Shown here one piece after another: positions 19,629-21,537 of a stretch of 64,000 bases of DNA; position 1 is the first letter of the stretch; every line of letters begins with the position of its first letter. Source of the stretch: Solirubrobacteraceae bacterium (GTDB taxonomy: Bacteria; Actinomycetota; Thermoleophilia; Solirubrobacterales; Solirubrobacteraceae); NCBI GenBank assembly GCA_025934395.1, contig JAICYC010000008.1, positions 1 through 64,000 of the forward strand. The letters run 5' to 3'. The notes beneath the pieces are model-generated. The model saw only the letters and a list, made by a program, of their open reading frames with translations, was not told the origin of the DNA and did not search any database. The translations under genes were made by a program, and so were the position numbers.

Positions 19629-20703
19629 ACTTCACCGAGATCACGTCGCCGTCGGACATGGTGTAGTCGCGGCCCTCGATCCGCAGGGTGCCGCGGTCGC
19701 GCGCGGCCGCGTAGCCGCCCGCATCCACCAGCTCGCTCCAGCCGATCACCTCCGCGCGCACGAAGCCCTTCTGGATGTCCGTGTGGATCTCGCCCGCCGC
19801 GTGCCACGCTGTCAGCCCGTCGCGCAGGTGCCACGACTGCGCGGGCTTCGCCTCGCCCGCGGTGAAGAAAGCGATCAGGCGCAGCAGCGTGAACGCCTCG
19901 CGCACCACGCGTGCCAGCCCCGACTCGCTCACGCCGAGCTCGCCGCGCATCGCGGCCGCGTCCTCGTCGTCGAGCTCCGCCAGTTCCGCCTCGATCCGTG
20001 AGGAGATCGCCACCGCGCGCGCGCCGTGGCTCGCTGCGTGCTCCGCCACCGCTGTGGGCACCTCGTCGGAGCCCTCGTCCACGTTCGCCACGAACAGCAC
20101 CGGCTTCGCCGTCAGCGAGCCGAGGTCGCGCGCCGCCCCGGGCGCCTCCTCCGGCACCACCACGCCGCGCGCCGGGCGCCCCGCCTGCAGCTCTGCGATC
20201 ACCTCGCGCAGCCAGCGCTCCTCCGCCACCGCCGCACGCTCGCCGCTGCGCGCCTGGCGCGCCACGCGGTCCATCCGCCGCTCGGCCTGCTCGAGGTCCG
20301 CCAGCACGAGCTCCGTCTCGATCGTCTCGATGTCCGCCAGCGGGTCCACGCGCCCCTCCGGGTGCACGACCCCGTCGTCGTGGTGCGCGCGCACCACGTG
20401 CACGATCGCGTGTGTCTCGCGGATGTTCGCGAGGAACTTGTTGCCCAGCCCCTCGCCCGAGTGCGCGCCCGCCACGAGCCCCGCGATGTCGTGGAAGTCG
20501 ATCGTGTCCCACACGATCTCCGACGCTCCCACGACCGCCGCGACCTGCTCCAGGCGCTCGTCGCGCACCGGCACCACCGCCACGTTCGGCTCGATCGTGG
20601 TGAACGGGTAGTTCGCGGCCTCCGCGCCCGCCTTCGTGAGCGCGTTGAACAGCGACGACTTGCCGGCGTTGGGCATCCCCACGATCCCGATGCGCGTGCT
20701 CAC
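19618..20703 (-). CDS. ychF: Redox-regulated ATPase/GTPase YchF (OLA1 family)
   Basis: 361 residues, the standard YchF length. P-loop IVGMPNAGKSSLFNAL, switch region NYPFTTIEPN, and DIAGLVAGAHSGEGLGNKFL are near-universal in YchF. The G4 position reads NVDE rather than NKxD, the change that makes YchF/OLA1 prefer ATP. The C-terminal TGS domain (EIHTDIQKGFVRAEVI) and the final SVKF are present. YchF associates with ribosomes and the proteasome or stress responses in other organisms. The GTG start overlaps the stop of the PAP2 gene by 4 bp (GTGA), indicating coupled translation. Confidence 0.97.
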   Translation of the reverse strand: MSTRIGIVGMPNAGKSSLFNALTKAGAEAANYPFTTIEPNVAVVPVRDERLEQVAAVVGASEIVWDTIDFHDIAGLVAGAHSGEGLGNKFLANIRETHAIVHVVRAHHDDGVVHPEGRVDPLADIETIETELVLADLEQAERRMDRVARQARSGERAAVAEERWLREVIAELQAGRPARGVVVPEEAPGAARDLGSLTAKPVLFVANVDEGSDEVPTAVAEHAASHGARAVAISSRIEAELAELDDEDAAAMRGELGVSESGLARVVREAFTLLRLIAFFTAGEAKPAQSWHLRDGLTAWHAAGEIHTDIQKGFVRAEVIGWSELVDAGGYAAARDRGTLRIEGRDYTMSDGDVISVKFTP

Positions 20704-21188
20704 CGCGGAGCCCTCTTCCCCGACCCGCCCGTCACGGTGCCGAGCGCCGCGCCCGCGAGCACGTCGGAGGGCCAGTGCACGCCGAGGAACAGGCGCGAGA
20801 GCGACAGGCCCGCCGCGAGTGCGTACAGCGGACCCGCCGGCAGGCCCAGCCGCGAGTACGCGCGCGCACCCGCGAACGACGTCGACGCGTGCGCGCTCGG
20901 GAAGCTCAGCGTCGTGGGCGTCGCCACCAGCGGCCGCAGCCCATCGAGGTCGGGCCGGCGCCGGCGCACCACCACCTTCAGCGCGGTGTTCAGCGCGTAG
21001 GTCCCGAGCACCGCCTTCAGCGCCCCCGCCCACCGCGGGCGCCGCCGCGCATCGACCGCGTAGCCCACGCTCCCGATCGCAAGCCACACGCCCGCGTGCT
21101 CCCCCAGCAGGGTGAACCGCGCCACCGCGCGCTCGGACCCCTCGCTGTGCCCCAGGGTCCGCGCCAACCGAAGCAACCTCTCATCCAT
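20700..21188 (-). CDS. PAP2-superfamily membrane phosphatase
   Basis: 162 residues from the ATG at 21188 (a second in-frame ATG at 21215 is possible). The three phosphatase motifs are in order: K-x6-RP in KVVVRRRRP, PSAH in SFPSAHAST, and SR-x5-H in SLSRLFLGVHWPSD. Several hydrophobic helices surround them. Such enzymes dephosphorylate undecaprenyl pyrophosphate or other lipid phosphates. The length suits a compact UppP/PgpB-like enzyme. It precedes ychF with a 4-bp overlap. Directly upstream lies a large inverted-repeat element. Confidence 0.85.
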   Translation of the reverse strand: MDERLLRLARTLGHSEGSERAVARFTLLGEHAGVWLAIGSVGYAVDARRRPRWAGALKAVLGTYALNTALKVVVRRRRPDLDGLRPLVATPTTLSFPSAHASTSFAGARAYSRLGLPAGPLYALAAGLSLSRLFLGVHWPSDVLAGAALGTVTGGSGKRAPR

Positions 21189-21213
21189 TTTGAAGATCTG
21201 CGATGACGAGGGC

Positions 21214-21315
21214 AAGACGGTCGTTGGTCAAGCGAGGCAAGGACGCAGGGAGCGAGATGTGCAGAGGCACATGAGCGACCGAGGACGCCGCATCGCGCAG
21301 GCCAACGGCCGTCTT
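21214..21315. other. Structured intergenic element (long inverted repeat with internal hairpin), candidate ncRNA
   Basis: Outer arms AAGACGGTCGTTGG (21214-21227) and CCAACGGCCGTCTT (21302-21315) pair over 14 positions with one mismatch, which becomes a G-U wobble only if the plus strand is transcribed. Two more pairs extend the stem inward, one of them also a plus-strand wobble. Inside lies a perfect hairpin ATGTGC-AGAG-GCACAT (21257-21272). GGACGC occurs once on each side of that hairpin. No T-tract follows on either strand, so an ordinary terminator is unlikely. It lies between the small protein gene (stop at 21316) and the PAP2 gene. Function unknown. Confidence 0.5.
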
Positions 21316-21537
21316 TCAGCCGAAGCCCACGTGGGCCTCGTCTGCCTCGGCGCTCACATAGACGACCTGCGCCAGGTAGATCCGGACGGGCCCGTCCTCC
21401 GCCTCGATCACGTGCCAGCCGCCCTTCTCGAGCGCCTCGTAGAGCTTTTCCAGCGGCTTGTCGGCGAGACGCAGCGCGAGCACCTGCCCGCCCTGGAAGC
21501 CGATGCTCACGCGCCGCGCGCCGCCGCCCGCGGGCAT
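21316..21537 (-). CDS. Small conserved-type protein linked to methylmalonyl-CoA epimerase
   Basis: 73 residues (MPAGGGARRVSIGFQGGQV start). Its ATG overlaps the epimerase stop by 4 bp, so it is translationally coupled and very probably real despite its size. The sequence alternates beta strands and one helix (LADKPLEKLYEALEKGGWHV), then GPVRIYLAQVVYV. This suggests a small alpha/beta fold. I do not recognise a family with known function. The tight coupling suggests a partner or regulator of the epimerase, which is inference. Confidence 0.6.
   Translation of the reverse strand: MPAGGGARRVSIGFQGGQVLALRLADKPLEKLYEALEKGGWHVIEAEDGPVRIYLAQVVYVSAEADEAHVGFG

Follow-up and report, generated by a model that had tools for sequence, protein, structure and literature searches.

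What is the folded sequence between a small protein gene and a PAP2-like gene on contig JAICYC010000008.1 of a Solirubrobacteraceae bacterium, and what keeps it folded? An earlier note on this 64,000-nucleotide stretch (here called the window) had described a structure at 21214-21315 and suspected selection on a plus-strand RNA. Our analysis puts a probability of roughly 0.8 on its being one copy, resident at this site, of a MITE/REP-like palindromic element of the Thermoleophilia, which is dispersed, non-autonomous and moved in trans.

The element and its fold

The whole palindromic element occupies 21211-21318 of the plus strand; at 108 bases it is slightly longer than had been described. 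It is the sole strong covariance-model match within the window (106 bits, 21211-21317). For the plus strand the fold has -60.0 kcal/mol (z = -6.95), a value that none of 200 shuffles equalled; the minus strand folds more weakly, at -46.4 kcal/mol (z = -3.2). The outer stem of about 16 bp reported by the earlier note is present (P1; 5' arm AAGACGGTCGTTGGTC at 21214-21229, paired in the fold with the 3' arm GGCCAACGGCCGTCTT at 21300-21315). It consists of 14 Watson-Crick and two T.G pairs, both of which agree with the claim that the differences in this stem are wobbles on the plus strand only. The perfect hairpin within it was likewise recovered (P3, ATGTGC AGAG GCACAT, 21257-21272), as were the two GGACGC copies at 21241-21246 and 21283-21288. 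These copies lie in the two strands of a conserved core, AAGGACGCAGGGAGCG at 21239-21254 and GAGCGACCGAGGACGCC at 21273-21289. Additional to the structure described before is a 7-bp middle stem, P2, in which GCGAGGC (21232-21238) pairs with GCATCGC (21290-21296), with one mismatch in this copy; P2 and P3 are both defined by the fold and by covariation across copies.

Both neighbouring genes lie on the minus strand. The stop codon of the small protein gene (gene call and open reading frame list, 21316-21537) reads TCA on the plus strand at 21316-21318 and directly adjoins the outer 3' arm, a detail that the earlier note had not given, and the putative PAP2-like gene (20700-21190, start codon approximate) begins just beyond its other end, so that the element sits just upstream of that start. 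PAP2 orthologues occur in 23 of 24 genus genomes, and the small gene lies beside PAP2 in 23.

A strong hairpin directly after a stop codon, in a family found in both convergent and tandem positions, might be read as an ordinary intrinsic terminator between two genes. The earlier note had denied this for want of a T-tract, whose absence is borne out by the sequence; moreover, a sequence and structure family of 106 positions is common to dozens of genomes, and the better-folding strand is biased antisense. We regard a terminator as very improbable.

Copy number and distribution

BLAST within the source genome, a check that the earlier note had proposed, gave 27 matches, and the covariance model found 29 copies. 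In a Solirubrobacterales-level set, 45 of the 61 genomes of the order carry the element, with 0-44 copies per genome among the 60 relatives; several genomes of the source genus lack it despite good assemblies. The genome FR_37 holds at least 135 copies, in which the element is about 165 bp long as against about 106 bp in the source genome. The 29 dispersed copies and the patchy occurrence among relatives support a mobile element of MITE or REP type.

Genome contigs were also scanned with a pattern derived from the element family itself. At least 120 stretches matched, and the named records among the matches listed were all Actinomycetota. Those with finer names were Thermoleophilia, Solirubrobacterales, Gaiellaceae, Candidatus Gaiellasilicea, Thermoleophilaceae or Conexibacter, while a few of the matches listed are titled just 'Actinomycetes bacterium' and many just 'Actinomycetota bacterium' and were not placed further. 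So far, the family is confined to records compatible with the class Thermoleophilia. The earlier impression of similar sequences in unrelated genomes was right in that such sequences exist and wrong in their spread, since the matches are compatible with this one class as far as searched. Exact-pattern or nucleotide searches found no viral, plasmid or phage carriage. Rfam gave no match at or above the gathering score and relaxed searches gave nothing credible, so a known Rfam RNA family was ruled out; the family is apparently uncatalogued.

Movement and an insertion-sequence partner

Throughout, the element is short (about 106-165 bp), multicopy and devoid of open reading frames. In genome G053, 19 copies are nearly identical, end sharply and lie at unrelated places. 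The left end of this subfamily is exclusive to the 19 short copies, save two 3-mismatch matches elsewhere, and no autonomous parent was found for it. Elements are also nested in elements, between P2 and GGACGC, a fixed position in the core. Both the sharp-ended copies and the nesting argue for mobility. The tandem arrays of the genus, with a left copy truncated on its 3' side and a complete right copy, would be consistent with replication slippage. Just one copy pair in the source genome shares an outer stem with different flanks, so recent movement there is weakly shown.

Terminal inverted repeats that match a resident insertion sequence were found in FR_37 only. Many copies there begin with CAGGCTG... 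directly after CTAR and end with ...CAGCCT[CG] directly before CTAR; CTAR thus stands on both sides of many copies, often decayed on the left. The resident insertion sequence (13 copies, about 1430 bp) has CAGGCTGCTGA at its ends, and 11 of the 13 copies show identical YTAR flanks. Its transposase lies in two frames in the one copy examined, and both parts match DUF772, DDE_Tnp_1, IS5 and IS1182 models, at scores below the curated whole-protein cut-offs. The match of element ends and CTAR flanks to an insertion sequence with IS5/IS1182-type transposase domains supports the MITE/REP reading, and we take the element to move in FR_37 as a MITE served in trans by this IS5-type insertion sequence with its YTAR target duplications. 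Through its ends and its target, an extragenic palindrome is here linked to one specific insertion sequence. This link is relevant to a question left open in earlier work (PMC3733652), namely how repeats come to move when they have no dedicated transposase.

Two observations in FR_37 concern altered copies. At L430 (1394-1463, plus strand) and L432 (1727-1796, minus strand), a group II intron end (Rfam RF00029) lies directly against the core, after GGACG, and the element seems to serve as a group II intron target. L414 and L420 are 68-bp derivatives that retain the terminal repeats without the core, apparently lost by deletion between CCAG repeats.

The other genomes searched offered no such partner. 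The Y1 transposase (PF01797) is absent from the copy-rich genomes G000, G014, G053 and G054 (28-44 copies each), and a RAYT-type REP was rejected on this ground; no DUF772 transposase partner was found in G000, G014 or G053. Among the findings against the MITE/REP reading for the source element, neither a Y1 nor a DUF772 transposase was found in the source genome, and element ends in its genus form complementary pairs (CTGA...TCAG, CTAG...CTAG) instead of simple direct repeats, CTGA...TCAG not being a YTAR duplication. The copies in the source genome may be older, moved by another enzyme than that of FR_37.

Gene context

Gene context was counted for a mixed set of 83 copies with a simple gene caller written for this analysis. 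A minus-strand gene lies on the right side of 72. Tandem arrangements are antisense in 43 and sense in 9, the remainder being convergent (29) or divergent (2); the corresponding antisense and sense counts are 14 and 1 in G053 and, for part of the FR_37 copies, 24 and 8. In many copies the outer 3' arm contains the stop codon of the gene on the right, so that element and gene overlap; where a copy has an extra outer stem, this codon stands 28-30 bases further out.

The tetramer CTAG is strongly avoided in the window (18 observed, 162 expected from base composition), and 10 of the 18 sites are at stop codons. Because CTAG is rare and concentrated there, a YTAR-targeting element would tend to land at stop codons, and such targeting explains the stop-codon overlap in FR_37; insertion would in this way place the element at gene 3' ends. 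For the CTGA...TCAG ends of the source genus, YTAR targeting is not a sufficient explanation. Copies in the source genome might be retained at those 3' ends that tolerate a strong hairpin or benefit from one, possible uses being protection of mRNA 3' ends and damping of read-through.

The site between the small gene and the PAP2-like gene carries a full element, in the same orientation, in 4 of the 23 genus genomes with the gene pair, and the outer stems of these four have diverged yet remain paired. Two other genomes have remnant-like sequence at the site and the rest have no element. This pattern fits old residence with repeated loss, and repeated insertion at a hot spot may also give it. 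The position at gene 3' ends, the clustering of CTAG at stop codons and the variable presence at this orthologous site all support the MITE/REP reading.

At one such site without the element (L238, in G002), a bare perfect hairpin (GTTAGGACGCCC AGC GGGCGTCCTAAC) lies over the stop codon. This hairpin notwithstanding, we do not accept as a general rule that the outer stem is a pre-existing terminator invaded by the core: the stem shows a consensus of its own and moves together with the element.

Comparison with known repeats

ERIC, Correia/NEMIS, RUP and RPE are palindromic intergenic repeats of 100-170 bp that fold when transcribed and whose movement is in trans or unclear. They belong to other bacteria; to our knowledge none of them has a tandem G.A core. 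The bacterial MITEs derived from insertion sequences with an IS5 partner are likewise short, non-coding and palindromic, and the FR_37 element shares its terminal repeats and 4-bp YTAR flanks with a resident IS5-type insertion sequence. The Thermoleophilia element differs from them: its interior shows high conservation and the covariation of a structured RNA, its core recurs with different ends, and the source genome has no IS5-type partner that we found.

REPs with GTAG or CGTC tags are units of 20-40 bp with a terminal tag, the GTAG types being tied to Y1 (RAYT) transposases (PMC3733652). They adjoin gene 3' ends between convergent or unidirectional genes, and GTAG termini often supply stop codons (PMC3733652); position at a gene end and supply of a stop codon are therefore not new by themselves. 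Our element resembles these REPs as a dispersed extragenic palindrome next to 3' ends, yet is about 106 bp long, has internal GGACGC copies and lacks a CCA tail. CGTC REPs have stems of 8-9 bp that begin with AT, and a CCA tail; on inspection, the copies did not agree with that description of a 20-40 bp unit with CGTC tag, AT stem and CCA tail (PMC3733652), and a CGTC REP was rejected. Taken together, the copies make up a large and apparently uncatalogued family of structured mobile repeats from a bacterial class that has been little studied.

Covariation and the conserved core

In a plain MAFFT alignment of 30 copies (A1), with a structure of 34 pairs, 92% of structure cells are paired and 27 pairs show changes on both sides. 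The covariation check proposed in the earlier note was strongly positive: double-change cells number 214 in the alignment; shuffled alignments average 66, with none of 500 reaching 214, and slid controls give 23-51. Every stem covaries strongly. Double changes fall in 15 of the 17 P1 pairs, P1 being 17 bp in most copies with pairing that drops sharply at position 18.

Mutual information over 115 model-aligned copies recovered the same stems together with pair 34-72, which is absent from the model and is C-G in 81 copies, A-T in 31 and G-C in 2. It lies inside the core, both strands of which are (nearly) invariant in these copies; around it, model positions G31-C75, G32.A74, A33.G73, G35.A71, C36 and A37.G70 are (nearly) invariant. 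Judged from sequence, two tandem G.A modules, the second of which has a bulged C, would flank a single Watson-Crick pair in the core. The same core was found with different ends in other lineages. A conserved, covarying noncanonical core common to elements with different ends is unusual, and would be unexpected of a plain MITE.

We suppose that a protein probably recognises this invariant core in the form of either RNA or single-stranded DNA. A tentative extension, which we hold to be possible but unlikely, is that the core functions independently as a strand-specific structure, in RNA or in single-stranded DNA, that a conserved factor of the Thermoleophilia recognises, and that two or more transposition systems have carried it through the class. 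If true, the signal that the mobile repeats spread would be regulatory or linked to replication; it would face against genes and, in one genome at least, against replication forks.

Strand asymmetry and replication

Among imperfect stem cells read on the plus strand, G.T exceeds A.C in P1 (99 vs 21), P2 (19 vs 3) and P3 (37 vs 12), and in all stems of 79 non-redundant copies (104 vs 35); p-values for this excess overstate the evidence, because the copies are related and the model-based alignment mildly favours G.U. The excess is strongest in copies whose plus strand is antisense to both neighbours (P1, 52 vs 7). This asymmetry would run opposite to the expectation from cytosine deamination on coding or leading strands. 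Selection on the plus-strand fold, whether this acts as RNA or as single-stranded DNA, is supported by the comparison of copies. Of the RNA suspected by the earlier note, the homologues, the strong covariation and the plus-strand selection over many copies have stood, while the notion of a singular RNA has given way to a dispersed mobile repeat with 29 genome copies. An invariant covarying core with a preference for one strand makes the choice between a selfish repeat and a carried RNA or DNA signal directly testable.

The element could be a functional RNA first and mobile second, its plus strand transcribed (antisense or by read-through) and its tandem G.A core binding a host protein that controls 3'-end termination or stability. 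Strong covariation in every stem, the invariant noncanonical core, the excess of G.U over A.C on the plus strand, the position at gene 3' ends and the diverged but paired stems at the orthologous site in four genomes all point this way. However, the plus strand showed neither a promoter nor a constant flank, left flanks differ, the plus strand is antisense to both neighbours in 43 of the 83 mixed-set copies, just where the G.T excess peaks, and several relatives have no copies; we hold this reading as a doubtful alternative.

Single-stranded DNA would explain a strand preference without sense transcription: the plus strand would act in that form, during transposition or at replication forks, with the core as a strand-specific DNA hairpin for an enzyme. 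In G053, where dnaA lies at the contig start, 26 of 28 copies oppose the fork, a stronger skew than the gene bias, which 20 sampled stretches put at about 62% (p 3e-4), and nested insertion at a fixed core position would also suit such a hairpin. In FR_37, however, the orientation is not significant (77 vs 58), and replication orientation was dropped as a general rule; further, the copy-rich genomes lack the Y1 transposase, and the ends of the FR_37 copies agree with a DDE-type insertion sequence, for which a fold of this kind is unnecessary. We consider this explanation unlikely.

Pairing might also be kept mainly by templated quasi-palindrome correction during replication and not by selection on the fold. 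Among the recently spread G053 copies, P2 stems are swapped as whole covarying blocks, and in G017 the 5' arm is complementary to the last codon of the neighbouring gene as well, both as such templating could produce. Yet templated correction should neither favour G.T over A.C on one strand nor spare identical core mismatches in 115 copies, and as the main cause it seems quite unlikely. Returning to the mobile element moved in trans, we suggest that the stems of resident copies stay paired through selection on the plus-strand fold, perhaps aided by such correction.

Some copies vary within this conserved plan. At several loci of the source genome (L009, L015, L019 and L020) the core is of a variant form, with a small additional hairpin (GGACGTACCCATnnCTGGGC...GGCAG) in its 5' part. 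In two copies of G000 (L014 and L021, on contigs C150 and C4) the apical loop is interrupted by a further palindrome, ACACTCGCT..GCTCGCATCCCCGAACCGG, which the two have in common.
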